From positions 1 through 64,000 of the forward strand of contig CAJQUW010011519.1 in assembly GCA_907163375.1 (NCBI GenBank): a DNA stretch of 64,000 nt, in the 5' to 3' direction. Shown piece by piece: positions 34,831 to 50,251 of the stretch; the first letter of the stretch is position 1; every line of letters begins with the position of its first letter. A program made the translations under genes and the position numbers. The notes under the pieces were generated by a model. It worked only from the letters and a program-made list of their open reading frames with translations, had not been told where the DNA came from and ran no database searches. Source of the DNA: Prostheceraeus crozeri (lineage: Eukaryota > Platyhelminthes > Polycladida > Euryleptidae).

Positions 34831-34909
34831 TATATAAGCAAAGTGACATTCAGGTCATTTCATTTAATCTGTGAATCATACAAGTGACGAACGCACGATC
34901 TCTCTCTTT
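34831..34909 (+). promoter_or_regulatory. TATA, initiator and shared leader of the polymerase gene
   Basis: TATATAAG at 34831-34838; TCATT with its A at 34862, 31 nt from the TATA start. At 34872-34895 lies a 24-nt leader beginning GAATCATACAAGTGACG, repeated with three mismatches at the same distance from the TATA box of the gene at the opposite end of the element (51050-51027, minus). Confidence 0.7.
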
Positions 34910-34973
34910 GACTATTATTTGAGTGAAGTCTCTATCTTGTAGAAGTATCAACCTTAAACTTGATTTCGTTGAA

Positions 34974-37900
34974 ATGGTAAGTTGAAAATTTCCTCTCATC
35001 TCCCTCAAACGTGTGACTAATAGCATCTTCCTCAATTTCAGACATCAACTTCATCACCAACGCCCTCTCTTCTCGAGGAAAGTTTAGAGTTATTGAGTCA
35101 AGGTAGGTTGTAACACTACACTGAGGCTTGAACAGAGATGAAAGAATGATTTCTCTTTCAGGTGATGTGAGTTCCAGCTCAGGACTCTCGCGGCAAGGCA
35201 ACGAGTGGGAATGTGCCGACTGCGGACATATGTTTACAAGGAAGCACAGTCTCCTTCGACACATCAAACAACGTGTGTGTCAACGCAAAGCGGCGTCAAT
35301 CTCCGGAGGTGAAGTTGATTCTGACGATGACATCTCCTTTCCTTGCGATTTGTGCCCTCTTTCTTTTGATAGTCACTTTCAGCGATCTTCGCACAGACTT
35401 CAACACACACATGCAAATGATCACTACACCAACGGTACCTCTACCATCTCCCTCATTAATGTTTCACATAATAATTTAGTACGCGACTACTGCATGGAGT
35501 CCAATACTCAAATTGTAGATTTTCCTGAGTGGCTCCTTCAAAATTCTAACATTATCGAAGCGCTCTTCAATAATTTAGACAATTTTAGAATGAAGGCGCT
35601 CATCTACCTTAAACTAAAATATATTAAAATAGATTTTCAAACGGGTCAAGTGACGGAGAGAATACAGTTTCATATTCCTTCCTCTTCCGCAACCGAAGTT
35701 GTAGACTGCGAGTCTTGGCTAAATTTTCACATTCAATGTTTAAAATCAAATGTAGATAAATTCAATCAACGCGACAGCGCTCTCATTTTTGATGGTGTGG
35801 ACTCAGCCATATTCAAAATTTCCCTATTAGAAAGTCATGCAGCTCGAGGCACATTTAAACTTCCAAAAACGTTGTATAATAAGAAAGCTGTCATCAATGT
35901 TGATTGTAAATCACAGTGTTTCAAATATGCAGTCCTATCCATCCTTCACTATAATGATATCAACGCGCATCGAGATCGCACCTATAGCTATAGACAGTGG
36001 GAGGATGAACTAGACTTTGAAGGTTGTGATAGTAACAACATGAAAATCAAAGATGTAGAAACGTTCGAAAAACATAATAAGATTAAAATTGTCGTTCACG
36101 TGTGGGAGAAGGGGTTGAAGGGTGCCCGCTATAATTCACGTTCAACTTGTTATGAACGTGTAGTCAACCTCTTATTAGTAAAACAAGATGATAGCGAGGA
36201 ATGGCACTACTGTGGTATTCCCAAAATCTCTCGCTTGTACACTCACTTGGGGCACTCTAAAAGAGGTGAACATTTTGTATGCGACCGCTGCATCCGCTCA
36301 TTTTGGAGTAAAGATAAATTTGAAACTCACTATGAATGGTGCAAGCGAGGTAAATTACAAATGGAACGCATGCCCAAAGATAAAATATTTTCACATAGGG
36401 ATAATGGTGACGAATTAAGTCCCCTGCGTGTCATTTACGCAGACATAGAATGCTACATTGATGATATCATCCACAAGCCAGCAGCCATATCCTGCTATGA
36501 AGTATGGCATGACCACTTTAGGAATAGACAAAACAAAATGCATACTTGGCAAGGTGAAGATTGCATTTCAAAATTTCTAGAATTTCTCGATAAAGCTGCA
36601 AAATTTCAACAATCATATGATTCCCAATTGCAGCGTAAGTCACTACATATGTCAGATGAAGACAAACAAAAATTTGAAAGTTGCACATCCTGTCCTAAAT
36701 GTCATAAAACGTTTGATGACGATAAAATTAAGAAAGTGCGTGATCATGATCACATCACTGGTAAATTTAGAAACGCACTCTGCTCCAAATGTAACTTTTC
36801 ACTTAGGTTGAGACGTCGTGTACTACCCGTCATTTTTCATAACTTTAAGGGCTATGACAGTCATATGCTCATAAAAGGAGGGTTGAGCCAGATGAAATCG
36901 TGGCAGTTTAATGTAATAGCACAAACGAGAGAAAAATTCATGGCAATGACAGCAAAAGTACCAGTAGATAAAACTAAAGAAAATAAGACAGTCTTCTTCG
37001 AAATAAAATTTTTAGATTCATTTCAATTCATGTCAGCGTCACTAGCTTCTCTCGTTCGTAATCTCAAGTTTCTTCCCCATAGTCAAACTTTAAAGAAACA
37101 CTATCCAAACTTAACGGATGAAATAATCACTCGCAAAGGAGTCTTTCCTTATGCGTATTTTAGCTCAATGTCTAAACTAAATGAAACAACCCTTCCTTCC
37201 ATTGACAAATTCAAAAACGATTTGACGGGTGAAGATTGTCCAGTAGAGGACTATGAACATGCTCAAGAGGCATGGTTAAAATTTAATTGTAAAACGTTTG
37301 GCGATTATATGATCGCTTACTTAGAATTAGATGTCATTTTGCTGGCTGATGTCTTTCAGGAGTTTCGACGAGTGGCATTAGAAGAAGACAAATTAGATCC
37401 TATCCACTTTGTCAGTCTACCAGCCATGTCCTTTAAATCAGCCTTTAAAATGACTGGTGAGACCATTCATCTCTTACAAGACCCGGAGATGTATAATATA
37501 TTTGAGCGCGGAATACGCGGTGGTCTCACATTTGTAAATAAACATCATATAAAATCTGAAACAGTAGGTGATGATCATATCCACCTAAAGTACTATGACC
37601 AAAATAATTTATATGGCAGTTCACTGTCTAAACCACTACCTCATTCCGAGTTTAGTTGGTTAAATCAAAATGAGCTTGAGTATTACTCCAACCCTTCAAA
37701 CATACTGAATATTCCAGATGAAGGTGATTGGGGATATTATTTTGAAGTGGATTTGATTTATCCAAATAGTATTAAAAATAAAACTGCTGATTTCCCACTC
37801 GCACCTGAATCTGGCGAAGTGACTGAAGATATGTTTTCACCATTCATGTCACAATTTCATAATAACTTAACAGAGTGTGGACAGCCAAGGTACAAACCAT

Positions 37901-38946
37901 GCCGCAAACTTTTACTCACCCAATATGATAAGAAAAATTATCTCGTACACTTCTGCATATTAAAATTCTATTTAGAAATGGGCATGCTTCTAAAGTCAGT
38001 TCACCGCATTATCAAATTTAGACAGAAAGCCTTCCTCAAACCCTACATAGATAGTAACAGTCAAAAACGTGCACTCGCCCAAAATAATTTTGAAAAGGAT
38101 TTTTATAAATATAAGAATAATAGTCTATTCGGAAAGACCATGGAGGATGTTAGAAAACGTATGAATTACAAACTAGTCGTTGATGAACAAAAATATCACA
38201 AATTGACCTCATCACCTCTTTTCATTGACAGAGACATCATCGATGAGGATCTTGTAGGTGTTAAAATGATTAAATCAGAAGTTGAGTTGTGCAAACCCAT
38301 CTATATTGGGCAAGCCGTTTTAGATTATTCCAAGCTTGAAATGTATCAACTCTTCTACAAAATATTAAAACCATGCCCTCTCGTAAAAGAGGTTCGCTTG
38401 CTGGGTGGTGATACAGATAGTTTCTTTTTAGGAATTACCACTCAAAAAGATTTAAATTTTAATGAAGTAGGTAAGTCATTAGAAAAATATTTCGATACAT
38501 CTAACTACAATCCCACTCATCCACTCTATTCCATACAGAATAAAGCCAAACTTGGTTGTTTTAAGGATGAAACAGCAGGAAAGGAAATAGATGAAATGAT
38601 TCTCCTCCGTCCTAAAATGTATTCCATGAAACTAAAAGAATGTGCAGATAGTATTAAGCGTGCTAAAGGTATATCAAAATCCATTGTTCATAAAATGAAA
38701 CATCGGTCCTATAAGAAGGCCTATAAAAATAAAACTATAACGTTTGTCAATATGACAATCTTAAAATCTCAAGTTCATACTGTGAAAACGTACACGTTCA
38801 AGAAACGAGCACTTTCGGCATGGGAGGATAAGAGGTGTTGGATAGGACATAACACATCTCTTCCACATGGACATCCTGACACAAACATACCTCCACCCAA
38901 AAGAATAAAACTCACGCTACCACATTCAGGAGATGTATTGACATAA
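34974..38946 (+). CDS. Protein-primed family B DNA polymerase (pPolB), spliced
   Basis: Replicates the linear element from a protein primer. The gene appears to have three exons: the initiator ATG alone at 34974-34976, donor GTAAGT at 34977; exon 2 at 35042-35102; exon 3 from 35162. The frame is kept throughout, giving about 1282 residues. The N-terminus has two C2H2-like fingers (CADCGHMF..., CDLCPLSF...) and a third Cys/His cluster (FVCDRCIRSF). 3'-5' exonuclease motifs are IYADIECY, NFKGYDSHML and YLELDVILLADVF; a Cys/His site (VRDHDHITGKFRNALCSKC) precedes ExoII. Polymerase motifs are YDQNNLYGSSL (A), NNSLFGKTMEDVR (B) and GGDTDSFF (C), all intact. AATAAA follows at 39105. Confidence 0.97.
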
Positions 38947-39125
38947 TCAACTTTAACTCAGTATTTTGATGTTGCTTTTTGTAGATATACATGGTTGTTT
39001 TATGTATCGCATGAGATCGTTTCTTCCTTGTGAATATATGCCTACAGTCAGCCCATTCCCCCTATATCTGTGAAAAGACTTTTTCATATACATATTTTTA
39101 TTTCAATAAACATATCACAATGACT
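38947..39125. terminator. Convergent 3' region with polyadenylation signals
   Basis: Between the polymerase stop and the convergent minus-strand ORF. AATAAA at 39105-39110 serves the plus strand; TTTATT at about 39098 gives AATAAA on the minus strand. Confidence 0.6.
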
Positions 39126-40646
39126 TCACTTTGTTTTCCGAAACACTAAAGTTACGAGGGATTTAGTATCTTTCACATGGATACACTCTTGTAAACCATT
39201 GGTAATTTTGATAGCAATAGAGGGTATAGTTTGTTTGACGACGGGATGATAGAAAATAGATTCAAACATCTTCTCGACTATTCCATATGAAGCGTCTTTA
39301 TCATGAATGAAATCACGTAAAATGTATTCTTTTTTCTCGCCAACAGAAATAGGTAAAATCAAATCACTTTGAATGTAAAGGTGTTGTTCATGTTTATCAA
39401 GTGTCATTGGTGTTTCTATACCAATCGTATGCGCAGCAGCAAACACAGTTTGTAGCATTGAAAAGCCAAAGAGTTTTTTCAAATTTTTACTCAATTGACA
39501 TTGAATGTCATCACCCAGTTTCAGAACAACGCGTTGTTTTTCAATTGAAAACGAAATGTGGTGTGTCTTTACATCATATTTACTTTTCATCACATGCTTC
39601 AACTTCTGTTGTATATAAGGATTTACTACATGAATGAAGCTTTCAACTGTATGATATAGACGCGGCATTATATTGATAGCAACTTTAGATTCTTCATAAG
39701 ACTGGTAAATTTTCTTGATGCGATCGCCATAGATGTCCACCCACCATTCATCATTAACTGAATCAGCTTTAGTGTGATATTCATGAGAACCATACACCAC
39801 ACCGCTTCCAATAATAGGCGTATAATGTCTTACAAAATGACGCAAGGTTGGAGAGAAATAAACTGTAAGTTTGTCATTATATTTCTGAATAACCAACTTA
39901 TTTTTGTCCGCCATAATTTTCTCTCCATACTTCTTACCCACAGTCTCATTCCATCGTTTTACTAACTCAATAAGTGATAAAGGTTGAACACCACGCTTTT
40001 TCAAAATGATGCGTTCTTCACATTCTACAACATCTTCATCAAATATTTTAAATCTATAATGAAATTTGTTGATTCGAGTTGAATAAACTTTTTTAACATT
40101 TGCAGTAGCAATTGACGTTAGATGTAGTCCATGGCCAAAACCGAGATGTGGATAGAATTCATTATCCAACCTCAGCGTAAGACCTTTAGTAAAAGAATGA
40201 AAGCGGAGGAACTGTCTCCCACTCCAATGATAGATAGTAAACTCATAAGCTTTCTGATTTTTATTCTTCATGATGGAAGTATTACCACTGTTGAATGCCT
40301 TAATAATTTTCTCATTCCCAAATGGCTCATAAGAATCTGATTTTATCTGAATCCATTCATAGTTCCACTTTCCATCTGATGTTAAATTGTATGGGAACTG
40401 AAATGCATTATTCATCGTTATTCCATCATGGGTGCGAGGAGTCAATATCATTTCTTCCAAATCATTCACATTCTGAATATTGCTATCATAGCAAATACTA
40501 GAAACGCCAACTTCCCATTCACCTTCTAAATGCAGTGGCCGATTTAATTCTACTCGATAGTCTGATGGTTTATTTTTGGGAAATTTATTCATAGAAGCAT
40601 TACTGGGCAAGTAGATTAGAAACGAGTCCTTATTTTCACTTTCCAT
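39126..40646 (-). CDS. Putative structural protein, paralogue 1 (PSNAS / GEWEVG family)
   Basis: About 506 residues from the ATG at 40646; the frame is open from an ATG at 40676, but a CAAAAG motif lies immediately before that, so the inner start is preferred. The N-terminus reads FLIYLPSNAS...FPKNKPSDYRVEL...LEGEWEVGVS, a layout I associate with proteins carried beside the capsid gene in invertebrate Polintons. The next gene upstream has the same start (YHILLSNAATKRF...LNGNWEVGVTQL) and similar length, so they arose by duplication. Both look like beta-rich soluble proteins with no membrane segment. A virion role (minor capsid, penton or fibre) is inferred, not shown. Confidence 0.75.
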   Translation of the reverse strand: MESENKDSFLIYLPSNASMNKFPKNKPSDYRVELNRPLHLEGEWEVGVSSICYDSNIQNVNDLEEMILTPRTHDGITMNNAFQFPYNLTSDGKWNYEWIQIKSDSYEPFGNEKIIKAFNSGNTSIMKNKNQKAYEFTIYHWSGRQFLRFHSFTKGLTLRLDNEFYPHLGFGHGLHLTSIATANVKKVYSTRINKFHYRFKIFDEDVVECEERIILKKRGVQPLSLIELVKRWNETVGKKYGEKIMADKNKLVIQKYNDKLTVYFSPTLRHFVRHYTPIIGSGVVYGSHEYHTKADSVNDEWWVDIYGDRIKKIYQSYEESKVAINIMPRLYHTVESFIHVVNPYIQQKLKHVMKSKYDVKTHHISFSIEKQRVVLKLGDDIQCQLSKNLKKLFGFSMLQTVFAAAHTIGIETPMTLDKHEQHLYIQSDLILPISVGEKKEYILRDFIHDKDASYGIVEKMFESIFYHPVVKQTIPSIAIKITNGLQECIHVKDTKSLVTLVFRKTK

Positions 40647-40685
40647 ATTATTCACATTGGAAAAATATATTAGCATACTTTTGCA

Positions 40686-42083
40686 TTAACTCTTCATTCG
40701 GAAATGGAGTGTAATACTTGTCACAGCATCTTTATGAAAAGGAATCAACGCACCAGCATCATCATAAATGGCAATATCAATTTGTGGGATGTAGTTTGAT
40801 TTCAGCTTTGTATAATGCACTTTCTTGAAAGTATGCTCAGATAAAATACTGCAGCTTTTTGGCTGGTATGGTATCATTGCTAGCAATGGAGCTTCAACAT
40901 CTCCCACACGTACATCTTCACCAATATTGGAATATATCTGAAAATAGTTAATACGACGCGATAGCGACATGTCTGCGCTAGCTTTGGTTACAGTACCACT
41001 TTTAAAGATATTTTGATCAAAACCCAAAATGTCCATTAGAGTTTTATCCATAATTAGTTCAATACCTTTTCCATTTATAGTGAGAGACAAAGTACCTTCT
41101 TTTTCAGAAAATGAAATATGTTGCTCATTAATCACTTCATTTAAATAATCTACAACCAATTTAACCGAAGTAATAATGCGAGGCATCAACACTCTTGTTT
41201 CATGTAAGAAGCCACCAAAAGGCTCTACACACTTTCTGTATAAAGATACGGCCCATTCTGTATCAAATTGATTTGACCTTTCACATGGTAAATGTTGCAT
41301 ATCAGATTTTCCATGAACAGCTGCAGAACGATGTCGTAAGAACTGATGAAAATCTTTTGAACAAACTAATACTAGATCATCATCATTTAATTTGCTTATT
41401 GCAATATGATTAGATGATTTAATATAAGTCAATGTTGCCACTTGTTTGTCATCAACTCGAAGGAGATAATTAAATTTCTTCAATAATGTTTCAGGAGTCA
41501 TGTTTGTCTTTCTTGGCTTAATCACAATCTTCTTCACCAACGTCTTCTCATTTCTTGGAATAAGATCTACATAATAAGCTTCCTCTCGATATATTAACTG
41601 TTTATGACCACTTATGTGGTAATTAACGTTAAAATTATCATAGCTTGTTAAGGCGCTAGCGAGGTAGCCTAAATCATTTCTTAAACTTGGACTTAAACCA
41701 ACAATCCAATCTTTCTCAACTACATGATGTACATAATTATAATCATCATTGTGCGGAGTAAATTGGACAATATGTTTACACGCTTTATTCAAGAAATCAT
41801 ATATAAACTTTTTACATGATAAGAGATCTTTCTTTGGCCACTGTGGAATGTATACTCGGCACCCCTTTTCACATTGATAAGCAGCTGTACGCCTCATATT
41901 AATAGTCATCACCTCATGATCAAAAGTATAGACACAGTTGCTATAAACAAGTTGAGTGACACCCACTTCCCAATTCCCATTTAGCTGTTGTGCATGATCA
42001 ATGGGAGTAGAAAAGAGTGCGGCTCGATTGCTAGTAAATCTCTTTGTAGCCGCATTGCTAAGCAAAATATGATAAAACGACAT
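40686..42083 (-). CDS. Putative structural protein, paralogue 2 (LSNAA / GNWEVG family)
   Basis: About 465 residues. The first ATG in frame is at 42083; the longer frame starts at a TTG. It shares with its downstream neighbour the N-terminal pattern LSN-A-----F--N------L--P-----G-WEVGV, repeated motifs in the middle (SPSLRNDLGYL versus DNEFYPHLGFG) and the late ILGF / LFGF segments. TGCAAAG lies 25-30 nt before the ATG, and only 35 bp separate it from the divergent PC4-like gene. Same likely virion role as its paralogue; function not proven. Confidence 0.75.
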   Translation of the reverse strand: MSFYHILLSNAATKRFTSNRAALFSTPIDHAQQLNGNWEVGVTQLVYSNCVYTFDHEVMTINMRRTAAYQCEKGCRVYIPQWPKKDLLSCKKFIYDFLNKACKHIVQFTPHNDDYNYVHHVVEKDWIVGLSPSLRNDLGYLASALTSYDNFNVNYHISGHKQLIYREEAYYVDLIPRNEKTLVKKIVIKPRKTNMTPETLLKKFNYLLRVDDKQVATLTYIKSSNHIAISKLNDDDLVLVCSKDFHQFLRHRSAAVHGKSDMQHLPCERSNQFDTEWAVSLYRKCVEPFGGFLHETRVLMPRIITSVKLVVDYLNEVINEQHISFSEKEGTLSLTINGKGIELIMDKTLMDILGFDQNIFKSGTVTKASADMSLSRRINYFQIYSNIGEDVRVGDVEAPLLAMIPYQPKSCSILSEHTFKKVHYTKLKSNYIPQIDIAIYDDAGALIPFHKDAVTSITLHFRMKS

Positions 42084-42118
42084 TTTTATATTGCTAATCT
42101 GCAACTTTGCATAACATC
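42084..42118. promoter_or_regulatory. 35-bp divergent spacer with ATGCAAAGTTG motif
   Basis: The spacer between two divergent start codons contains, on the minus strand, ATGCAAAGTTGCAGATTAGC then AATATAAAA. Similar motifs lie before 45588 (ATGCAAAGTTGTAAC), 40646 (ATGCAAAAGTATGC) and 48592 (GCAAAGACTAAC). I infer a late-type core promoter. Confidence 0.45.
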
Positions 42119-42475
42119 ATGAAGACTTGGATTTTGGACTCTCTACAATATATCAGAGTTGATCGTGATGGAAACGTACATTTCAAAAATTCTCATGGTC
42201 ATACATCAAGAGGAATTACATTAACATGGCGACAATTTGTCAACCTCAATGATATCATGAGGGATTTGGAATATTTTGAAACATTAAGATTCATCTCCTT
42301 GGGTGATCAAGTTTGGCTTCAACATTACAGAAATGAAATTCAAATCTACCATTCTCATTCCGCAAACTGTTTCTCATTTCGCAAATACAATTGGGAGAAG
42401 TATAGAAGATACATACATCGCTCCATCATGACATTTATTCGTCGTGAGTTCATCGCCCTACTATGCAAATCTTAA
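42119..42475 (+). CDS. PC4-like protein 1 (putative ssDNA-binding transcription cofactor)
   Basis: 118 residues from the ATG at 42119 (the open frame begins earlier at TTG). WILDSLQYIRVDRDGNVHF is followed by RGITLTWRQFVNLNDIMRDL, which resembles the PC4/Sub1 fold, where strands lead into a conserved GISLTxxQWxxL helix. A second strand-strand-helix set follows (LGDQVWLQHYRNEIQIYH, then WEKYRRYIHRSI), so two half-units may be fused. PC4 binds single-stranded DNA and promotes transcription; Polinton-type viruses would use it in gene expression or replication. It has a paralogue 22 bp downstream. The family assignment is from pattern only; it may be another small DNA-binding fold. Confidence 0.6.
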   Translation: MKTWILDSLQYIRVDRDGNVHFKNSHGHTSRGITLTWRQFVNLNDIMRDLEYFETLRFISLGDQVWLQHYRNEIQIYHSHSANCFSFRKYNWEKYRRYIHRSIMTFIRREFIALLCKS

Positions 42476-42497
42476 TCAGATATGATTACCACGCACC

Positions 42498-43148
42498 ATG
42501 AGTTGGAAATTAGATTCCCTACAACATATTGAAACGGATCATGATCGAAACGTCTATTTCAAAGATTCAACTGGAAATGTGAGAAGAGAGTTTGTTTTAT
42601 CTTATCGTCATTTTCAATCTCTACATCATATCATGAAGGACTTGAAATACTTCTATATGAAAAGACATTCACGTATTGGAAATCGCATCTGGCTGCGCGT
42701 CAACAATCGGCGAATTCAACTCTATCATTCCCAACTTCATACTAACTTCACATTTCATCAAGGTAGTTGGGAAAAGTATAAAAGGAAGGTACATCGCTCA
42801 ATTTACTCATTCTTTCATCATGAAGCGCCATCGCTACACCATCGTCAACATTCTCCGTCGCTTCAGACTCTACACCAAAATCGATCTCACAACATTACGC
42901 CAACAGCTTCCAAACAGCAAGTATTACCCGGGCCGTCCTCAAATGTTAGTGGTGAAGATGAACAATTCACGGAATCTTCAACTCTTCCCAAATGGGACTG
43001 TACAGATTCTCGGCGCCCTTTCTCATTCATCGGCGCAGTCAATGCGCTTAGAGCTACAGAGACTACTACGTCGGATATGGAAGAGGGAGAGGTGTGTGAT
43101 GTCGAATCTGACTGTGGACAATATGGTGATCTCTACTCAATTGAGTGA
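42498..43148 (+). CDS. PC4-like protein 2 with long polar tail
   Basis: 216 residues. The first ~105 align with the gene just upstream (WKLDSLQHIETDHDRNVYF, REFVLSYRHFQSLHHIM, IGNRIWLRVNNRRIQLYH, WEKYKRKVHRSI), a tandem gene duplication. The remaining ~110 residues are polar, His/Ser/Thr-rich, then acidic (TTTSDMEEGEVCDVESDCG) and are read from DNA that encodes the TBP-like protein in another frame (42820-43148). The tail is probably disordered. It could be a real dual-coding extension or a frame that stays open by chance. Confidence 0.6.
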   Translation: MSWKLDSLQHIETDHDRNVYFKDSTGNVRREFVLSYRHFQSLHHIMKDLKYFYMKRHSRIGNRIWLRVNNRRIQLYHSQLHTNFTFHQGSWEKYKRKVHRSIYSFFHHEAPSLHHRQHSPSLQTLHQNRSHNITPTASKQQVLPGPSSNVSGEDEQFTESSTLPKWDCTDSRRPFSFIGAVNALRATETTTSDMEEGEVCDVESDCGQYGDLYSIE

Positions 43149-43365
43149 CAGTCTATCATTTTTGAAGATTCGTACCAGCAGTTACAGTTTGTGTTATGAA
43201 CCCGAACTTTTTCCTGCAGCTCTCATTAGTTGTTGGTTGCCTGTGCATGTGGCAATCTTTCATAATAGTAAAGTGATCATTACTGGACTAAAATCTCATG
43301 AACAAGCAAATATGATCCTAGACTATCTCATTGAGTATGTACGTACCCAGCGGATTGTAAAATAA
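42820..43365 (+). CDS. TATA-binding-protein-like transcription factor
   Basis: 181 residues from the ATG at 42820, chosen because the domain begins soon after; the frame is open from 42676. Two TBP-type half-repeats are visible. Repeat 1 (about residues 30-80) reads NSKYYPGRPQMLVVKM, then LQLFPNGTVQILGALSHSSAQ and an Arg-rich helix. Repeat 2 (about 95-178) has LTVDNMVIS, then YEPELFPAALIS, VAIFHNSKVIITGLKS and a closing helix. The spacing follows the saddle-shaped TBP core: the Y-P-R/LFP-------I, F-S/G-K/V-TG and helix landmarks are in order in both halves. It would direct transcription from the element's own TATA promoters. AATAAA overlaps the stop codon. The 5' 329 bp overlap the PC4-like ORF in another frame. 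Confidence 0.88.
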   Translation: MKRHRYTIVNILRRFRLYTKIDLTTLRQQLPNSKYYPGRPQMLVVKMNNSRNLQLFPNGTVQILGALSHSSAQSMRLELQRLLRRIWKRERCVMSNLTVDNMVISTQLSDSLSFLKIRTSSYSLCYEPELFPAALISCWLPVHVAIFHNSKVIITGLKSHEQANMILDYLIEYVRTQRIVK

Positions 43366-43391
43366 AAAACAATTTTTCCAACATGATGTTT

Positions 43392-43853
43392 TTATTTCAA
43401 ATCATGATAGAACTTACAAATCATTTTTTCATTAGAGGATGGATTACATGAAAAGTTTTGAATAACAGATGCAAATCGAGATACATGTAAACGTTTTAAG
43501 ATGAAGTACAGTACAAAAGCACCACACGTTGATGAAAGTGGATGTTGTAGTATGCGTTCATTTCGCTGATATTGACGCGTATGTTTTCTCAACCACTGCT
43601 GTGTTGGTATATTTGGAGGTTGAGCAAGAGAGTCAAATAGTTCACCACGTCGGTCTTCTCCAATAAAGATCGCTTTCCAATGCTCACCGCCTAAATTCTG
43701 TGAATGAGTGTTTAGCACAATAAAGATGGGATAGTGATTTACTGCAGGTGGTAAGGTATCGAGTGAATAGACATTATCGAAAGCTTTCAACGTCGCTTCG
43801 TCTGCATTACGCTGCACTTTAGTCTTAATATCGTCAGCAGTCAACCAACTCAT
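43392..43853 (-). CDS. Adenain-like cysteine protease (virion maturation)
   Basis: 153 residues. Catalytic landmarks of the adenovirus/Ulp1-type protease are in order: His in GEHWKAIFIG (about residue 57), Asp in GELFDSLA (about 73), and Cys in SSTCGAFVLYFI (about 110), with a Gln-rich stretch between that may hold the oxyanion Gln. It would cleave precursor capsid and core proteins. Its ATG overlaps the capsid stop in TAATG, so the two are probably expressed from one transcript. AATAAA (minus) lies just past its stop, 27 bp from the convergent TBP-like gene. Confidence 0.92.
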   Translation of the reverse strand: MSWLTADDIKTKVQRNADEATLKAFDNVYSLDTLPPAVNHYPIFIVLNTHSQNLGGEHWKAIFIGEDRRGELFDSLAQPPNIPTQQWLRKHTRQYQRNERILQHPLSSTCGAFVLYFILKRLHVSRFASVIQNFSCNPSSNEKMICKFYHDLK

Positions 43854-45130
43854 TAACGATTATACTGAAGAATCACGTCACGATACTTTGTAATTTCAAT
43901 ATTTGAATCGAAGACTGCATAAATTAATACATTGATCGTCTCAGGTAGTGTTCTTTTGAACGTCAAATCCAAACGAATATTATGAGGCACGTTCGCTTGA
44001 CGATAGGGTGCACTAATATCGCTGTCAGCAGTCAAATCAAATGCATAAATAGTATATCCACTCTTAAACTCTTTCATAGTCAGTCCGTTGGTATCATCCG
44101 TATTGTAAAAGCCAAAGACATCCATAAAATCAACATAACTGCGCATAAATTGATCCGAAGCAAAATCTGGTTTGTAGGGTGGACCAGGATGACTCACACC
44201 ATTAACACGTAAAGCAATTTCACTTAACTGATTGTGTTTAAAATTGAAAGGATTCTTCTTTATATTACCATTAAATGCATCATTTTCAACCATTGCCACC
44301 ATGAGGAGCTTTGGTGCTTCCGATGGAAAGAGGCCATCTTTCATGAAACTCTTTTGATCTTTCGGAATTGTAAAGGTGAGAAGCTTTGTATGCTGAACGG
44401 GGTAAATGGCATTTTGGCGGTTAAGACCTTCAGCATGCCCTCTAATGACACTTGGATTCGGTACTACTCGACGAATGTAAAGTGCAATATCTTCCACATG
44501 AATTCTAAAATTGTCAACTTTAGCAAATGCATTCAGCGCAAATTCAGGCTTATTCAATGTCAGCTTGAGTCGCATGCTGGTATTACAGAGTAAAAACTTT
44601 GACTGTCTAAAGAAGTCTAAATTCAGCGGACCATATAGCTGACATACTCTACTATCTTTAATCATAGCAGATCGCTTTACAAAGCCACTGTTTGTTTCAA
44701 CATCAAATTTTCCTGCTTCATCTCTGTACCATCCCATGGCTTCCATATGACTTTTTTGTGCTGCTGGATGAAACTGTGATACATGATTGAAATATGATTT
44801 ATAGGGATAATCGCTTTGACCACCTTCCACCTGCTGCTCTCCAATCGTTAGAGAAACATCGCGAAGTAATGTAGTCAATGGTAAATTGTTCAGTCCAACT
44901 TTATGTGCATCGTCAATAGCAGTTCCATCTGCTTGCTGAATTCTAAACCTCAAATCAAGCATCGCATAACTCAAATCTATGTAGTCATCACTACCACCAG
45001 GAATAACAAATTCAATGGGGCCAGCATTCTCAGCTGTTCGAGGATGATAATCTACAATACTTGAACTAAGAATATCTGTCTGTATGGCTTGTTGATCGAA
45101 CAAACAAAAACCGGAAGTTTTACACTCCAT
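43853..45130 (-). CDS. Putative major capsid (hexon-like) protein
   Basis: 425 residues. Matches the widespread invertebrate Polinton protein often annotated F54H12.2-like: an N-terminal FDQQAIQTDI segment, then FVIPGGSDDYIDLSYAMLDL, the LNNLPLTTLLRDVSLTIGEQ block and QSDYPYKSYFNHVSQ, later KLTLNKPEFAL and YAVFDSNIEITK at the C-terminus. The strand-rich pattern and the position between the protease and a basic core protein fit a jelly-roll capsid protein. It is shorter than the ~600-residue capsid proteins of many Polintons, so penton versus hexon assignment needs structure prediction. No indels seen. Confidence 0.8.
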   Translation of the reverse strand: MECKTSGFCLFDQQAIQTDILSSSIVDYHPRTAENAGPIEFVIPGGSDDYIDLSYAMLDLRFRIQQADGTAIDDAHKVGLNNLPLTTLLRDVSLTIGEQQVEGGQSDYPYKSYFNHVSQFHPAAQKSHMEAMGWYRDEAGKFDVETNSGFVKRSAMIKDSRVCQLYGPLNLDFFRQSKFLLCNTSMRLKLTLNKPEFALNAFAKVDNFRIHVEDIALYIRRVVPNPSVIRGHAEGLNRQNAIYPVQHTKLLTFTIPKDQKSFMKDGLFPSEAPKLLMVAMVENDAFNGNIKKNPFNFKHNQLSEIALRVNGVSHPGPPYKPDFASDQFMRSYVDFMDVFGFYNTDDTNGLTMKEFKSGYTIYAFDLTADSDISAPYRQANVPHNIRLDLTFKRTLPETINVLIYAVFDSNIEITKYRDVILQYNR

Positions 45131-45132
45131 GA

Positions 45133-45588
45133 TTAGAAGTTATAGCAGCGTCGTCGTTTAGCGCCTGATGAATGATTAGAGCCTCTGCGACGTTTGCGTG
45201 AATGCCTTTTGACTGAAGATCGCACCTTACCAGCTCCGCGATGTTTCCTCCTTCCTTTTCTCATTCGTTTAGGTGATTTCTTTCCTTGAGTAACACCAGC
45301 AATGGTCTGCTTCAATGTTTTTAAACCGCGTTCCTTCCCACGATTCAACAAACTGCTCTTAAAACTTCTACCTCTGGAAAGATCACTAGCAACATCACCA
45401 GCAAAGCCAACGGCATTACTTAAAACATTTCGTTTTAAAGATCTACCGACATTGGATATGAGAGGTGCTACAACAGATTTCAGTGCACCAAGTATGCTAC
45501 CTCCACGTTGGCGGCGAGCACCGATGTAAATTTGTCCTCCACCACTTACGTAGGAGGGTCGTGAATAAAATGAGGCAGTTGGATTCAT
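45133..45588 (-). CDS. Basic core / pX- or pVI-like virion protein
   Basis: 151 residues, very basic. A Gly-rich start (SGGGQIYIGARRQRGGSILG) is followed by a short amphipathic or hydrophobic segment (ALKSVVAPLISNVG) and a C-terminus packed with Arg and Lys (KSPKRMRKGRRKHRGAGK... KRHSRKRRRGSN). This resembles the condensing or membrane-active core proteins of adenoviruses and adintoviruses. RGGS and GAGK-type sites may be cleaved by the adenain-like protease. Stop and capsid ATG are only 2 bp apart. ATGCAAAGTTGTAAC lies upstream of its ATG, so it probably heads the core-capsid-protease transcript. Confidence 0.75.
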   Translation of the reverse strand: MNPTASFYSRPSYVSGGGQIYIGARRQRGGSILGALKSVVAPLISNVGRSLKRNVLSNAVGFAGDVASDLSRGRSFKSSLLNRGKERGLKTLKQTIAGVTQGKKSPKRMRKGRRKHRGAGKVRSSVKRHSRKRRRGSNHSSGAKRRRCYNF

Positions 45589-45629
45589 AGCTCAAACCCT
45601 AAACATTGTTAGTTACAACTTTGCATGAA

Positions 45630-46718
45630 TCACTGTCGATCACTTAGATGAAAGATGTCGGCACGACGCATCCAAGAGTTCATACTTGAAGGATAACCAG
45701 TCCATTTAACAAGACACCATTCTTCACCTTGCCGTTTTTTACATCGAATGATTTTCTCTACCAAATATGTTTCACTTTCAGTGACTACCTCAATCTCATC
45801 GCGGTAAAAGCTACCCTCAATTTCTTCATTATCGTAATCTTTCAACTTGTAGGTGGTCGGAGAGTCTTTTTGATTAATCCTTGATACTGTAAATACCTCC
45901 TCTGTCCAATTCGGGAGGTACCCTTTAGCAAAAACACTTTTCACTTTTGAGATACGAACTTTATCGCCAATTTTCACATCACTTTTCACATGAGTGCGTT
46001 TACGTTGGAATGATTCGCGCACTTTATCTACATTGTCAGCATTTACATCTACTGGTCTGAGTCCAATAGAACGATGGATAGAGTGATTGTAGGCATGGAG
46101 TGTATCTTGTAGAACCTTTGTCCAATTTTGTGTCAAGTTGGCAGTAAAATGTCGCCACAAACGATTTTTTAATGTGCGATTAAAACGTTCAACGAGTGCA
46201 GCTTTATAAGCGCTCTTTACACTAAACAACTCAATGTCATGCCTCTCAAATAATCTTGTCACATGCTGATTTTCAAACTCTTTTCCTTGATCACTCTGAA
46301 TTCTTTTTGGAATGCGACCTTCTCGAAAAATTGTTTGGAATGCTTTTGCTACTCCTTTCCCTTCTTTAGTTTTTAAAGGTTGAGCCCACGCATAACGCGA
46401 GAAAATATCAATGACGGTTAAAATAAAATTATTGCCCGAGTTATGTTTTGAAATGGAGGCAACATCGCACAAATCTGCTTGCCACTGTTCATCGATGTCA
46501 TGAACAATATAATGGCGGGTGCGGTACTTCTTTTTCGCTTGTTTGTGGAGTGTATAGGTAGCCTGACCCTTTAACCATCGTTTCACTTGTGATTGTGGAA
46601 GACCACTCGCTTTTGATAATTTCTTGATAGATGCAAATCCTGCCGGATGTTTTACATCATAATAGATTGACTTCAAACGTTCAGTCGATGACGGCTGACT
46701 CTTTTTCCTCCTTCTCAT
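45630..46718 (-). CDS. Retrovirus-like integrase with chromodomain
   Basis: About 362 residues from the ATG at 46718; the frame is open to 46850, but that part overlaps a Cys-rich ORF and has odd composition. An N-terminal helix-turn-helix-like part (KSIYYDVKHPAGFASIKKL, QVKRWLKGQ) is followed by the DDE core: Asp in DEQWQADLCDV, Asp in RIQSDQGKEFEN and Glu in ALVERFNRTLKNR. A C-terminal SH3-like region (VKIGDKVRISKV...FAKGYLPNW) leads to a chromodomain (YLVEKIIRCKK..., EWCLVKWTGY, NSWMRRADI). It inserts the element and leaves the 6-bp duplication seen at the ends. The chromodomain may guide insertion to certain chromatin. Catalytic residues are intact. Confidence 0.95.
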   Translation of the reverse strand: MRRRKKSQPSSTERLKSIYYDVKHPAGFASIKKLSKASGLPQSQVKRWLKGQATYTLHKQAKKKYRTRHYIVHDIDEQWQADLCDVASISKHNSGNNFILTVIDIFSRYAWAQPLKTKEGKGVAKAFQTIFREGRIPKRIQSDQGKEFENQHVTRLFERHDIELFSVKSAYKAALVERFNRTLKNRLWRHFTANLTQNWTKVLQDTLHAYNHSIHRSIGLRPVDVNADNVDKVRESFQRKRTHVKSDVKIGDKVRISKVKSVFAKGYLPNWTEEVFTVSRINQKDSPTTYKLKDYDNEEIEGSFYRDEIEVVTESETYLVEKIIRCKKRQGEEWCLVKWTGYPSSMNSWMRRADIFHLSDRQ

Positions 46719-46896
46719 CTTTTTTCTTTCTTGCCTTTCTACATTTACAACAACTGCAGCATTTAGCTTTAGCGGTTTTGCGATCGTGTTCACATTGCTT
46801 AGGGGTTTCATTATGAGAGCTGGCGCAGCAAGTGCAAGTGACAACGACATTCACCTCTGGCGGCTCATTACATGGCAAGCAACACATCTGCTTCAT
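46681..46896 (-). CDS. Small Cys-rich protein overlapping the integrase start
   Basis: 71 residues with 12 Cys, mostly in pairs (MKQMCCLPC, VVVTCTCCASSH, AKCCSCCKCRKARKKKDEKE). It starts 1 bp after the stop of the upstream gene and its end overlaps the integrase start by about 38 bp, the same tight packing as its neighbours, which supports it as a gene. It may bind zinc. It could act alone, or, if a frameshift or splice joined it to the integrase, provide an N-terminal zinc domain; nothing in the sequence proves that. Confidence 0.55.
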   Translation of the reverse strand: MKQMCCLPCNEPPEVNVVVTCTCCASSHNETPKQCEHDRKTAKAKCCSCCKCRKARKKKDEKEEKESAVID

Positions 46897-46897
46897 A

Positions 46898-47590
46898 TTA
46901 ATAGTCTGAGAACATGTATTTCCTAGGAGGAGCTGTTTTACGTTTTCCTTTTACCAGTTTTAGTGGCGATACAGATCTACGTCGAGTTCTTCCCCTTGTT
47001 TGCTTAGTGAGTGTGGGAGGGGATGTAGCAGGTGACGTCTTAAACCAATTTGTTGGCATTTTCATCGCCTGAAGCATTGGAGTAGTAGCCACTGTTGAAT
47101 CAAGTTCTTTCAATGTCTCATTATTTAAAGCAAATTTTGGCACATTATGCTTTTTCAATAGTTTAAGAAAGTATGACCAACCAGGTGGAACATAGCCCTG
47201 ACGGCGCTTTCTACGTGTCGCATACTGAATCAAGTCTTCATAACGTGAAGCATCAATCACTTTATTTTCATCTGTAATGATTTCTCCTCTATCATTTACA
47301 TTGAGATGGGGTTCAATACTGTTGAAAAGAGATATGGCATGTGCGCGAGATGCTAAAGGTGTAGCAGTCGATACAGAGTCACGCATCTTATTCTTCAAGT
47401 TTTTCAATTGCTCAACAGTTTCCGATTGTAATAATACAGCACGATGTGGATCTTTGATGTGAACATTTTGCTGATAATCTATTTCTTTCCTATACATTTG
47501 ATTTGCAAGAGGTTGCTTTACTTGCTGCATGGCAGTCAATTGTACATATTCATCCTGAGGAATAACAATCATGCGAGAATAAGAACTCAT
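46898..47590 (-). CDS. Conserved basic protein of the Polinton morphogenesis block
   Basis: 230 residues, function not known. MSSYSRMIVIPQDEYVQL at the N-terminus, a helical middle (EQLKNLKNKMRDSVS), a segment DASRYEDLIQYATRRKRRQ followed by VPPGWSYFLKLLKKHNVPKF, and a basic tail (TRGRTRRRSVSPLKLVKG). I recall similar ORFs next to the packaging ATPase in other invertebrate Polintons, but none has an established role. Its ATG overlaps the ATPase stop in ATGA, so it is likely translated from the same transcript. The basic tail could contact DNA. Confidence 0.7.
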   Translation of the reverse strand: MSSYSRMIVIPQDEYVQLTAMQQVKQPLANQMYRKEIDYQQNVHIKDPHRAVLLQSETVEQLKNLKNKMRDSVSTATPLASRAHAISLFNSIEPHLNVNDRGEIITDENKVIDASRYEDLIQYATRRKRRQGYVPPGWSYFLKLLKKHNVPKFALNNETLKELDSTVATTPMLQAMKMPTNWFKTSPATSPPTLTKQTRGRTRRRSVSPLKLVKGKRKTAPPRKYMFSDY

Positions 47591-48204
47591 AGTTTGTAGA
47601 TAATCATGGGAGTTTTCAAAATATCACTTCGAAATCTAAATTCTTCCGGACACTCTTGCGTAAAGTCAATGAATAAGTAACCGTATGGTTTTTCAGTAGC
47701 TGCTTGAAAAATTTCAATTAAGGCTTTTGATCCTCTGGGTGCAACTTGTCGCGCTAAAATTTCAAATTGACTTTTATCTCGCGGATTCTTGAAAATAGCA
47801 TAATAGTGTGTATTCAGGTTTCGTGTACGAGCTTCTTTTCCATCAGGAAACAAATTTTGTGTAATATAGATGATAAAACACCTTTTATGGTGTGCTGCGC
47901 GAGTGAACATATCTGTAACATCTTTTGAATTCTTACTTTCTTTTAATAAATCATCCAATACAACAACATCATTAGACTGAAGTTTATCCACTGGAATAAT
48001 TCCTTCATGTCGAATAAAGTTGCGACTTTGCAATTCCTGAAACAGCGACGGTTGATAAATACCATAACACCAAATCACTCGATTGATAGGTTCCTTAAAC
48101 AACTCCCTTCTTTTATCCAATAAATTCAGCGTGAAAACAGTTTTACCTGCATGAGATGGACCTGATACAGTCAGAACTTTATCACATTGAAGTCTGAAAT
48201 CCAT
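47587..48204 (-). CDS. FtsK/HerA-type genome-packaging ATPase
   Basis: 205 residues from the ATG at 48204; the frame extends to 48252 but only to a TTG. Walker A is GPSHAGKTVF (about residue 15), Walker B is DVVVLDDLL (about 82), followed by a sensor-like FIIYITQNLF. The C-terminal LFIDFTQECPEEFRFRSDI is typical of Polinton A32/FtsK-like ATPases. It would pump DNA into preformed capsids. The start lies about 30 bp after the upstream stop; its stop overlaps the next ATG. All motifs intact. Confidence 0.93.
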   Translation of the reverse strand: MDFRLQCDKVLTVSGPSHAGKTVFTLNLLDKRRELFKEPINRVIWCYGIYQPSLFQELQSRNFIRHEGIIPVDKLQSNDVVVLDDLLKESKNSKDVTDMFTRAAHHKRCFIIYITQNLFPDGKEARTRNLNTHYYAIFKNPRDKSQFEILARQVAPRGSKALIEIFQAATEKPYGYLFIDFTQECPEEFRFRSDILKTPMIIYKL

Positions 48205-48235
48205 TTTATTACTTTGAGACTCAACATTTGCATAA

Positions 48236-48592
48236 TTAACGCTTAGAGCCAAAGATATTTCCCAATAGGTTGCCCACGGCAGGAGCTATCATTGGAAGTA
48301 TTGCTGAAAGGAAACCGCCCTTTTGTGTTAGAGTTTTCCTCTTTCTTTGAAGGGCGACTTTAGGATTGGAGATGAAACGCAATTTCGTAGCATATCGCTT
48401 AAGTAACTTTCGTTGTTTTCGCGCTAATTTCTTCGTCCTCAACTTCCTCACATGAGAAATAATTTCACAAATGAATTTATCGTTAGCATGTCGTATAGCA
48501 TTGTATCGCTGATTTGCTTTCATTCGTCGGAGAGCTTGAATGGCTGAAGAAAACTTTTGACTTTTACGTTTCGTCATTTTACGTTTCGCCAT
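48236..48592 (-). CDS. Small basic protein with hydrophobic C-terminus
   Basis: 118 residues. The first ~95 are strongly basic and helical (MAKRKMTKRKSQKF, KKLARKQRKLLKRYATKLRF). The end is KGGFLSAILPMIAPAVGNLL, a short hydrophobic stretch followed by a Lys/Arg tail. A basic helix with a GGFLxxLLP-type tail is common beside the ATPase in invertebrate Polintons; it may be a minor virion or membrane-lytic protein, but no function is established. GCAAAGACTAAC precedes its ATG by about 20 bp. Confidence 0.75.
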   Translation of the reverse strand: MAKRKMTKRKSQKFSSAIQALRRMKANQRYNAIRHANDKFICEIISHVRKLRTKKLARKQRKLLKRYATKLRFISNPKVALQRKRKTLTQKGGFLSAILPMIAPAVGNLLGNIFGSKR

Positions 48593-48643
48593 TTTCCGTG
48601 TTAGTCTTTGCTAAAACCTATCTTTACCACATTTGCATAGGTA

Positions 48644-48967
48644 CTAACTATTGCGACATAAGTGACACTCGAAATGAGCAATGTCACAGTGGTTACATTG
48701 GCAAAGTTGAATGCAATTACGTATGAAACAGCGTTGACAAAAAGCATGCTTACATCTCTTGAAGATGCGCTTTTCATTTCCATCCTTTCGCTTACATACA
48801 TCGCAACACATAGTTTCACCGTTACTGATGTCTATAGCAAGTCTTTTTGAAGATATGAATTTGCTAGCCTTTTCTAAATAATAGACGCATGTACAGAAGG
48901 AATATACTTCGAGAGTGAGCAGACATAGCTCGAAAACCAGTTGTGCTACAATCAAGTACCACTGCAT
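48644..48967 (-). CDS. Membrane-anchored RING-like zinc-finger protein
   Basis: 107 residues from the ATG at 48967, 2 bp after the upstream stop; the longer frame starts at TTG. A hydrophobic N-terminus (WYLIVAQLVFELCLLTLEVY) should span or enter a membrane. The C-terminal half has CCDVCKRKDG, FKRCKHAFCQRCFIRNC and CNHC...CHLC, the Cys/His spacing of a RING-type finger (CxxC, CxHxxCxxC, CxxC). RING proteins usually act as ubiquitin ligases, so a host-modifying role is possible. This is inferred from cysteine spacing only. Confidence 0.6.
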   Translation of the reverse strand: MQWYLIVAQLVFELCLLTLEVYSFCTCVYYLEKASKFISSKRLAIDISNGETMCCDVCKRKDGNEKRIFKRCKHAFCQRCFIRNCIQLCQCNHCDIAHFECHLCRNS

Positions 48968-48969
48968 TT

Positions 48970-49380
48970 TCAATTTTTCTTTATGGAAAGTTGAATGTGA
49001 ATATCTGAAATCGCTTCAATCACTAGACTGCTACCATGATGGTTAAATGCGTTAAGACGTTCAGCAATTTTTATCATATGTCTTTTAAAAAATTCTTGGG
49101 GGTGATCTACCACTTCCATTGAATAAGAAGCAAAATGGAAAGAGCGACTTTCCACCTCTTCCTTTCCAAAATGACTAAACTTAATTTTCGCAACTAATCG
49201 CGCCATGATAATGCTATCAGAGAATGTATTCATTAACTCTAGAAATAGAGTGCTAGCATCATCGACCACTGCTTCGATGTCGGTCTCATCTTTATGAAAT
49301 TTTATCACATAATCTTGAACAGCTCCTTTTAAACTTTGCCTATGAAAACGTAATGTTCCGCAGTCGTTTGAGAAAGACAT
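48970..49380 (-). CDS. Conserved-looking ORF of unknown function (136 aa)
   Basis: Not recognised with confidence. MSFSNDCGTLRFHRQSLKG leads to a segment with QDYVIKFHKDETDIE, then IMARLVAKIKFSHFG, FHFASYSMEVV and a closing HIQLSI. The pattern (strand-rich, F-K-H-F-S phrases) recalls the N-terminal part that precedes polymerase-linked ORFs in some Polintons, but the match is weak. Its stop is followed by the next ATG after 2 bp, so it shares a transcript with the RING-like gene. Confidence 0.6.
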   Translation of the reverse strand: MSFSNDCGTLRFHRQSLKGAVQDYVIKFHKDETDIEAVVDDASTLFLELMNTFSDSIIMARLVAKIKFSHFGKEEVESRSFHFASYSMEVVDHPQEFFKRHMIKIAERLNAFNHHGSSLVIEAISDIHIQLSIKKN

Positions 49381-49467
49381 GATCGCCCTTTATCTAACCC
49401 ATCCATTGCATGAAAACAACAACTCTTCTCATAGTAACATTTATTGAATAATGGTAACAAGCATGCA

Positions 49468-49998
49468 TTATAAATCAATGGTTTGAAAGAGATAAAATAG
49501 ATACAGCTGGTAACTATCATATAGCGAGCAATGATAACCATACAGGACTTTGGCAGTGTTGAGGTAAGGAGGAAAGAAGCATTGGTTATGAACGTAGCTA
49601 CTACAACGAACAGACAAAATAGGAACACACAAATCCTTAAAACGTTTTGTGACTTCATGATAATGTTGATTCACTCTACTATCCCAAGGTGGGAGCAAAA
49701 TATCATCAATGATTAGATTGGGAAATACTTTCCTCTCCTTACCAGGATTATTACAAAAGATGCGTATAACATTGAAAGCAGCTAACCATCGTTTAAAGTC
49801 AATAAGAAGAGCACTCTCACAAGAAAAGCCATAGTCTTGCAAATATTTCAGATTAAGTCCATGAATGTGTTTTCTCGCCCATTGATCAACATTGGGATCG
49901 CAGTTGGCATGTTGATGATAGACACTAACAATCTGATATGTCCAATTGTTCATAGCAATAGCACTGAGCTCCTGTACAGGTTCACCCTCACAATCCAT
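49468..49998 (-). CDS. Putative DEDDh-type exonuclease-like protein (176 aa)
   Basis: MDCEGEPVQELSAIAMN at the very start matches an ExoI motif (DxE followed by ...EL..IA). A middle stretch RIFCNNPGKERKVF is a possible ExoII region, though the usual Asp is not clear. YHCSLYDSYQLY near the C-terminus has the HxxxxD spacing of a DEDDh ExoIII motif. Similar ORFs with an RxHIHGLN-type segment (here ARKHIHGLNLKYL) occur in other invertebrate Polintons. It could proofread or process DNA ends, or act on RNA. The unclear ExoII residue leaves activity open. Confidence 0.6.
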   Translation of the reverse strand: MDCEGEPVQELSAIAMNNWTYQIVSVYHQHANCDPNVDQWARKHIHGLNLKYLQDYGFSCESALLIDFKRWLAAFNVIRIFCNNPGKERKVFPNLIIDDILLPPWDSRVNQHYHEVTKRFKDLCVPILSVRCSSYVHNQCFFPPYLNTAKVLYGYHCSLYDSYQLYLFYLFQTIDL

Positions 49999-50050
49999 AA
50001 AAATGATGATAGAAGCCTAAAACGGAAATTTACACATCTAAGGAAACGTT

Positions 50051-50251
50051 CTATAACATATTACAAAATGAAGAATTACATCGATGCTTTTCACGACAAA
50101 ATACACAAATGATATGATGGCAACGAAGAAGTAAAATGTATCTAATAAGACCACGTCTACGACACTCAAAGCACATAAGCGAATTGTCATAGGGTAGAGT
50201 TAGGAAAGGACTAGCAATTCTCCTTCTTTGATTTGCGTTTTGATGTAGCAT
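50051..50251 (-). CDS. Small Cys/His-rich (RING-like) protein
   Basis: 66 residues from the ATG at 50251. The frame holds LMCFECRRRG, LLRCHHIICVFC and HRCNSSFCN, i.e. CxxC, CxHxxCxxC and a final C...C pair, a compact RING or zinc-ribbon pattern. It overlaps the end of the upstream gene by about 40 bp in another frame. Short length and overlap make it uncertain, but the Cys spacing is like that of the RING-like gene 1.1 kb downstream. Confidence 0.45.
   Translation of the reverse strand: MLHQNANQRRRIASPFLTLPYDNSLMCFECRRRGLIRYILLLRCHHIICVFCREKHRCNSSFCNML

Follow-up and report, generated by a model that had tools for sequence, protein, structure and literature searches.

Why would a Polinton carry a gene for a TATA-binding protein (TBP), and which promoters might that protein read? 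The question is raised by a 64,000-nt stretch of the Prostheceraeus crozeri genome (positions 1 to 64,000 of contig CAJQUW010011519.1; hereafter, the window), in which a first-pass annotation, made from the letters alone, noticed a TBP-like gene inside a Polinton and suggested that the element supplies its own promoter-recognition factor.

A TBP homologue within a complete Polinton

The element is bounded by terminal inverted repeats (TIRs; 25362-25976 and 51247-51858) that are 97% identical over 617 alignment columns, and direct reading of its flanks gives a 6-bp target site duplication (TSD), ACAATA, at 25356-25361 and 51859-51864.

25362..51858, no strand: complete Polinton/Maverick, 26.5 kb, delimited by TIRs and TSD
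42820..43365, + strand: viral TBP gene, 181 aa (ATG at 42820, stop at 43365), matching Pfam TBP PF00352

A search against the Pfam TBP profile, proposed as a check by the first-pass annotation, matched the 181-aa ORF in two stretches (PF00352.27; E 7.6e-21, 74.2 bits against a cut-off of 22.9). Using phmmer against PDB sequences, with E up to 10, we obtained 37 distinct sequences: TBPs or TBP fusions account for 35 (E 2.8e-14 to 3.9e-8), and TonB for the other two (E 1.6-1.7). A profile of 36 family members matched the TBP of 2z8u, which we take to be the archaeal TBP of M. jannaschii, at 2.3e-23; since this alignment covers positions 1-177 of 181, both half-repeats are present, and both align with cellular TBP by sequence. 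We conclude from these alignments that the ORF is a two-repeat TBP homologue within a complete Polinton. The first-pass annotation had thus correctly placed the gene, read its two half-repeats and recognised the element around it.

The Polinton is abundant in the 2.05-Gb host genome. An identical 181-aa TBP with no stop was found in 150 of 150 scored copies, which are the best 150 of 11886 first-look candidates and so biased towards intact copies. Eight of these 150 copies are 99.3-99.7% identical to the window across 3.5 kb, and older subfamilies in the same genome have approximately 84-87% identity across the TBP gene and virion block and 66-79% in several stretches outside it. Given these near-identical intact copies besides older subfamilies, we conclude that the Polinton is young, recently active and high-copy.

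The TBP gene sits amid the other genes of the Polinton, which lie on both sides of it:

35146..38946, + strand: PolB-like protein, 1266 aa, with an Endonuclease VII domain (PF02945, 7.5e-7)
39126..40676, - strand: 516-aa protein, probable virion protein from its position and its likeness by eye to the 465-aa protein; no Pfam match
40686..42083, - strand: 465-aa protein, probable virion protein from its likeness by eye to the 516-aa protein; no Pfam match above cut-off
42119..42475, + strand: 118-aa ORF, no assigned function, from ORF reading
42498..43148, + strand: 216-aa ORF, like the 118-aa ORF by eye; no Pfam match above cut-off
43392..43853, - strand: adenain/Ulp1-type protease (PF02902, 0.0012, just below cut-off)
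43853..45130, - strand: 425-aa conserved virion-type protein (263 proteins at E <= 0.001, best 120 of 263 listed)
45133..45588, - strand: 151-aa basic protein; no Pfam match above cut-off
45630..46850, - strand: integrase (retroviral type) with chromodomain (PF00665, 1.2e-10; PF00385, 6.5e-7)
46898..47590, - strand: 230-aa ORF; no Pfam match above cut-off
47587..48204, - strand: packaging ATPase, A32 type, weak (AAA_14, 0.017; Pox_A32, 0.026; both below cut-off)
48236..48592, - strand: 118-aa basic protein, weakly adenovirus core protein pX-like (PF05829, 0.0024, below cut-off)

The PolB-like protein has the motifs GDTDS, NNSLFGK and DQNNLYG by eye, and a Pfam search of it with E up to 1 gave no PolB match. 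The Pfam search of the Polinton proteins recognised no capsid protein, and the protease and ATPase by sub-cut-off matches alone. Polintons reside in nuclear genomes, and we saw no RNA polymerase among the genes of this one. The 216-aa ORF shares 329 nt with the TBP gene in a different frame. The 425-aa protein is presumably F54H12.2-like, a name also used in the first-pass annotation. One protein that is 86% identical to it (P0141) is filed under a ‘Pseudomonadota bacterium’ MAG, probably because DNA of a eukaryotic element was binned with a bacterial genome.

Outside this gene block, a 295-bp unit is repeated in tandem about 14 times at 25848-29953, beginning within the left TIR; part of one such unit, inverted, is found in the right TIR. 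A 205-bp unit is present three times in tandem at 33616-34229, with copies that match at 98%. GC skew is strong (0.293) at 30001-32000 over a 414-aa ORF, where several antisense ORFs are Ser-, Pro-, His- or Thr-rich. Two ORFs on the - strand (32401-32811 and 33130-33504) have about 45 identical residues in common, a duplication within the small-ORF region.

With its TIRs, 6-bp TSD, PolB-like protein, chromodomain integrase and, weakly, protease and ATPase, the element resembles known Polintons/Mavericks and adintoviruses, from which it differs in having a TBP gene aboard. Consistent with the impression recorded at first pass that TBP was not a described Polinton or adintovirus gene, the accessible portions of the open literature on TBP with Polinton, Maverick, adintovirus or virophage describe no such gene; a mention in the adintovirus founding paper is possible. 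The accessible text of a Drosophila adintovirus paper (PMC8363768) has no occurrence of ‘TATA’ or ‘transcription factor’, and the matches listed for Polinton with ‘late promoter’, as far as their accessible text goes, concern mostly virophages and giant viruses.

Relatives, descent and DNA-contact residues of the viral TBP

A protein search gave 60 TBP relatives among 99 candidates; with a profile, 486 of 3448 candidate proteins matched at E <= 0.001, the best 120 of 486 being listed. Both listings combined yield 139 distinct relatives, nearly all of them metagenome or assembly proteins. We gave up counting all 486 profile matches as members of the viral family, since those beyond the 120 listed may include ordinary TBPs.

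We compared the family with cellular TBPs by phylogeny, another check suggested at first pass. The host has a TBP of its own on contig C9306, with contact residues that are canonical by eye, and a TLF/TRF2-like gene (G000:C3829:151573-151923; L032) that is 41% identical to yeast TBP. In a tree of 69 rows, 54 family members fall on one side of a branch with SH-aLRT support of 100; in a tree of 42 rows that includes both host genes, 27 of 27 family members group together with support of 100/100 (the window TBP is counted in both; L020 and L029 were omitted from the smaller tree for their long branches, and the near-copies L025 and L026 from both). The AU test rejected a clade joining host TBP to the window TBP and to P0001, the nearest relative of the window TBP (p 8e-97), and we therefore abandoned recent capture of host TBP as an origin. 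Topologies that place the family with TLF (p 0.19), or with eukaryotic TBP and TLF on one side (p 0.25), were not rejected. Against six of the nine diverged copies in the same genome (those without stops), the TBP gene has a dN/dS of 0.21-0.28; this value and the copy number rule out a chance or degenerate ORF. On these comparisons the viral TBP is an old viral gene under purifying selection.

A genome search with the distant relative P0049 found nothing above 42% identity among the 150 matches scored, and thus no other TBP family was seen in the host genome. Scans of viral contig and genome contig collections gave no confirmed relative of either the TBP or the 425-aa protein. Drawing on the 139 listed TBP relatives and 120 listed relatives of the 425-aa protein, we counted four pairs whose longest contigs are equally long (at least 2500 bases), where 0.49 were expected and none of 400 shifted controls was as high; removing the 2500-base limit gave five pairs, with 1.37 expected and 6 of 400 controls as high. 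These pair counts are indirect evidence that the two sets of relatives come from common contigs.

To describe the DNA-contact face, we mapped the yeast TBP residues that touch DNA, as given in Table 1 of PMC12529657, on the alignment of the 139 relatives, excluding gap rows. The second repeat is largely kept: N159, V161 and F207 in 139/139 and 139/139 and 139/139 relatives, respectively, F190 in 138/139 and T215 in 137/139, with V213 replaced by Ile in 116/139. The first repeat keeps N69 (117/117 non-gap rows) and F116 (139/139), and is otherwise changed at F99 (Pro in 133/136), L114 (Gln in 135/139), V122 (Gln in 139/139) and T124 (Leu, Met or Phe in 139/139); V71 is Met in 104/127 relatives and Leu in the window TBP. 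Both base-contacting Asn residues are present in the window TBP (N10 and N101), as are three of the four kinking Phe residues. The F99 position is Pro, and for this reason we file the protein as a TBP homologue rather than a canonical TBP. The family is one residue shorter before F207, which makes the pairing of V203 and L205 unsafe; ungapped alignment back from F207 puts His and Ala at these positions in the window TBP.

The centre of the box is where N69, N159, T124 and T215 of cellular TBP are positioned, and the 3′ half of the box is covered by the first repeat, including L114 and V122. Judged by the alignment, the viral TBP is without the first-repeat hydrophobic contacts used by cellular TBP. 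Residues E186 and E188, which we take to be on the TFIIB side of TBP, are kept in 136/139 and 138/139 relatives, and the K138 position, presumably TFIIA-facing, is acidic in 118/139. Thus, the Polinton protein shares with yeast, archaeal and host TBP the two repeats, both Asn, three of four Phe and the EPELFP motif, but differs from them in the replacement of F99, L114, V122 and T124, in its separate clade and in its overall identity (22-28% to five cellular TBPs).

Virus-encoded TBPs are known elsewhere: according to the accessible parts of the respective papers, 59% of mirusviruses encode TBP (PMC10132985), and the protein is also encoded by megavirus (PMC11464507) and CpV-BQ1 (PMC12085832). 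We found 12 viral TBP loci in IMG/VR, including two near-identical pairs. Unlike the Polinton TBP, none of the 12 has Gln at position 114 or 122, and 10 have Phe at the F99 position. None of the 10 placed in the 69-row tree falls within the Polinton family, and nine join archaeal TBPs (support 88).

Two promoter classes in the Polinton

The pattern TATAWA-N20-25-TCAKTY has 10 matches in the window against 1.4 expected, and none of 100 shuffles had as many. Six of these make up five promoters in the Polinton (those of ORF88, ORF83, PolB, TBP and the 171-aa ORF), in agreement with the five TATA-bearing genes counted at first pass. The pattern is not Polinton-specific, as the other four matches fall beyond the element. 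We take the initiator to be of the arthropod type, judging by its consensus, with the TATA box at about -30.

32302..32335, + strand: TATA-initiator promoter of ORF88 (32341-32607); TATA kept in 2/2 aligned diverged copies
32824..32857, + strand: TATA-initiator promoter of ORF83 (32872-33123), from the pattern match
34831..34865, + strand: TATA-initiator promoter upstream of PolB; TATA kept in 3/3 aligned diverged copies, TCATT initiator in 1/3
42777..42812, + strand: TATA box TATAAAAG and initiator TCATTC of the TBP gene; TATA kept in 8/9 diverged copies, initiator in 9/9
51058..51092, - strand: TATA-initiator promoter upstream of the 171-aa ORF; TATA kept in 4/5 rows, the fifth (L052) being misaligned

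The ORF83 promoter had no counterpart among the diverged copies; in the promoter alignments, the L050 row for ORF83 is misaligned, as is the L052 row for the 171-aa ORF. The PolB leader below the TATA box (34825-35160) contains an ATG followed by GTAAGT and, later, TTTCAG, resembling a first exon and short intron.

Read-through of the TBP promoter can be looked for in relatives that are extended at the N-terminus. In 27 of the 139, the first conserved Asn is preceded by 22 or more residues; xI[KN]-(11-13 aa)-Met is present in 17 of these and absent in 10 (for P0072, the match as printed is a chance one further upstream, and the regular match is present too). At this fixed spacing, xI[KN] is what a TATAAA box would encode, and the FxHFF that often lies beyond it would fit TCATT. 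We conclude that the five promoters are ordinary TATA-initiator promoters, which host TBP can serve.

A second sequence, ATGCAAA, precedes genes of the virion block. It occurs nine times in the Polinton interior against 6.65 expected, and is rarer there than outside (0.42 versus 0.83 per kb); we therefore gave up the idea that it is over-represented as such, and its placement alone stands out. Six of the nine interior occurrences are in sense orientation and no more than 60 nt upstream of a start codon. These are six of 22 gene starts, a number that no 7-mer reached in 1000 random-position or 1000 Markov sets; the box had been spotted on this Polinton's own promoters, and the gene list and upstream length for the test were set afterwards.

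40680..40686, - strand: ATGCAAA box of the 516-aa gene; kept in 4/4 aligned diverged copies
42106..42112, - strand: TATGCAAA box of the 465-aa gene; kept in 3/4 copies in one alignment and 7/9 in another
45620..45626, - strand: ATGCAAA box before the 151-aa gene (then the 425-aa gene and protease); kept in 4/4
48227..48233, - strand: TATGCAAA box before the ATPase gene (then the 230-aa ORF and integrase); kept in 4/4 correctly aligned rows
48632..48638, - strand: TATGCAAA box of the 118-aa pX-like gene; kept in 3/4
42463..42469, + strand: TATGCAAA upstream of the 216-aa ORF, a doubtful promoter that shares sequence with the end of the 118-aa ORF; retained by only 5/9 diverged copies

Four of the six boxes read TATGCAAA, which equals TATATAAA with its central AT changed to GC. 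The box of the 516-aa gene lies 10 nt before the first ATG and 40 nt before the second, and two diverged copies are without the first ATG; the sequences suggest that this gene starts at the second ATG. Taking that start codon, box-to-start distances are 29-46 nt.

We followed the boxes of the five leftward genes through five diverged elements, all from one genome, and found them intact in 18 of 20 gene-by-copy cells. Box columns are identical at 138/140 positions compared with 306/445 (69%) for the leaders, in which intact seven-column blocks number 20/312. The 20 cells come from a possible 25: nothing was returned for L043 (516-aa gene), L046 (465-aa gene) and L045 (118-aa gene), L047 was all gaps for the 151-aa gene, and a misaligned L045 row was dropped for the ATPase gene. 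The leader alignment of the 425-aa gene has a misaligned L046 row. The 20-cell count excludes the box of the 216-aa ORF, which would add 3/5 for the same elements; with that box overlapping coding sequence and kept in 5/9 copies, we gave up treating the ORF as a late gene. Two non-promoter occurrences behave differently from each other: ATGCAAA at 43469 is lost in 4/4 aligned copies, and that at 46631, within the integrase gene, is kept in 5/5.

Neither box was found in the 60 nt preceding 136aa, 176aa and RING107, nor in the 60 nt preceding the protease gene, the 425-aa gene, the 230-aa ORF and the integrase gene. The last four would be read from the box of the preceding gene. Box-less genes lie -4 to 47 nt from their upstream neighbour, and box-bearing genes 9 to 51 nt, except for the 465-aa gene (1308 nt). 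These ranges do not differ, and we gave up telling the two groups of virion genes apart by this gap; because box-bearing genes are equally near their upstream neighbours, the assignment of the last four genes to box-headed units is a prediction.

A candidate promoter-recognition factor for late genes

The computed results (homology, family, selection, residue changes, two promoter classes and conservation of the box) are compatible with the following working. In an early phase, host TBP and Pol II would read the TATA-initiator promoters, including those of PolB and the viral TBP. In a late phase, the viral TBP would bind the ATGCAAA/TATGCAAA box approximately 29-46 nt upstream of virion and packaging start codons, recruiting host TFIIB and Pol II to these sites. 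The protein has kept most DNA-bending and TFIIB-facing residues, and has changed residues at the places where cellular TBP holds one half of the TATA box. We put forward tentatively, at slightly less than an even chance, that the viral TBP is a Polinton-specific factor that recognises late promoters through the ATGCAAA box, leaving early genes to host TBP. Both the binding to this box and the early/late timing are predictions that we infer from sequence. The changes at T124, L114 and V122 may be linked to recognition of TATGCAAA; a point against this link is that T124 to Leu is not a change to a polar residue.

The two chief rivals to this proposal are that ATGCAAA is a site for a host octamer factor, and that the viral TBP reads the TATA boxes. 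The POU/octamer motif is ATGCAAAT; three of the six window boxes match it in full, and so does the 465-aa gene's box in all three copies that retain it in the four-copy alignment. On this account the box would be unrelated to the viral TBP. However, the other three boxes in the window have G or A at position 8, likewise the diverged boxes of the 151-aa and 516-aa genes; moreover, all six are on the sense strand at a narrow place before the start codon, with no properly placed TATA box. This strand bias and narrow placement without TATA are more in keeping with a core promoter element than with an enhancer site, and we consider a host octamer site rather unlikely, at about one chance in four.

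The first-pass annotation tied the viral TBP to the TATA boxes; on that reading, the protein would free the element from host TBP. The five TATA-initiator promoters, and the retention of both base-contacting Asn and three of the four kinking Phe, are in keeping with this. However, host TBP is able to read TATA boxes, the viral TBP gene itself needs a TATA promoter for its first expression, and almost all of the 139 relatives have other residues in place of L114, V122, T124 and F99. The part of the suggestion that stands is that the Polinton encodes a TBP homologue; its tie to the TATA boxes is weakened by promoters that host TBP can serve, by the loss of first-repeat hydrophobic contacts and by virion genes that carry a different box. 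We consider it unlikely, at about one chance in five, that TATA boxes are what the protein reads. With host TBP able to serve the TATA promoters, the viral TBP changed and the virion genes carrying ATGCAAA, the likelier job of the viral TBP would be reading ATGCAAA.

A protein with no promoter of its own might instead act as a decoy, titrating host factors such as TFIIB and so shutting down host transcription. The TFIIB-facing residues are indeed kept, and the presumed TFIIA-facing position is mostly acidic, but the DNA face, with its near-invariant Asn and Phe residues and two newly gained Gln, points to selection for DNA binding, and we regard a decoy as improbable. That the gene is a functionless copy of host TBP, recently picked up by this one Polinton, has next to nothing in its favour beyond the presence of TBP and TLF-like genes in the host, given the same residue changes in the 139 listed relatives, their single fully supported clade, the rejected grouping with host TBP and the low dN/dS.

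Late-promoter recognition by the viral TBP would have a parallel in beta- and gammaherpesviruses, whose TBP mimics (KSHV ORF24, EBV BcRF1 and HCMV UL87) are likewise viral TBP-like factors. As described in the accessible part of PMC12529657, KSHV ORF24 replaces TBP at TATTWAA late promoters and acts within a set of six viral proteins; it has Ser, Asn and Asn at positions 114, 122 and 124, of which the two Asn are needed for activity and the Ser is contributory. The Polinton TBP has Gln, Gln and Leu at these positions, and Pro where ORF24 has Phe at the F99 position. With Gln in one and Ser and Asn in the other, two viral TBP-like proteins have thus turned polar at 114 and 122, a comparison that we make here by way of the published Table 1. 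Both systems would use a non-TATA late box, the Polinton box (TATGCAAA, as opposed to herpesviral TATTWAA) being a candidate binding site. The Polinton protein is a TBP core alone, whereas the herpesviral mimic has a partner set, none of which was recognised in the Polinton. The likeness between the Polinton TBP and ORF24/UL87 would be one of working, not of family membership.

Taken as a whole, we suggest, with a little more reserve than for box recognition itself, that Polintons of this lineage may have their own early-to-late switch, reached independently of herpesviruses, in which host TBP would serve the TATA genes and a re-tuned viral TBP would read the TATA-derived, G-C-centred TATGCAAA. 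A TBP family with an altered DNA face, together with a second promoter class retained in diverged copies, opens the timing of Polinton genes to direct test by one protein and a pair of short DNA probes. If the proposal is true, Polintons and herpesviruses arrived independently at a polar-saddle TBP for late genes, making this the second, independent case of a viral TBP devoted to such genes. The protein would then be a natural altered-specificity TBP, and its gene would be a marker for finding active Polintons in animals.
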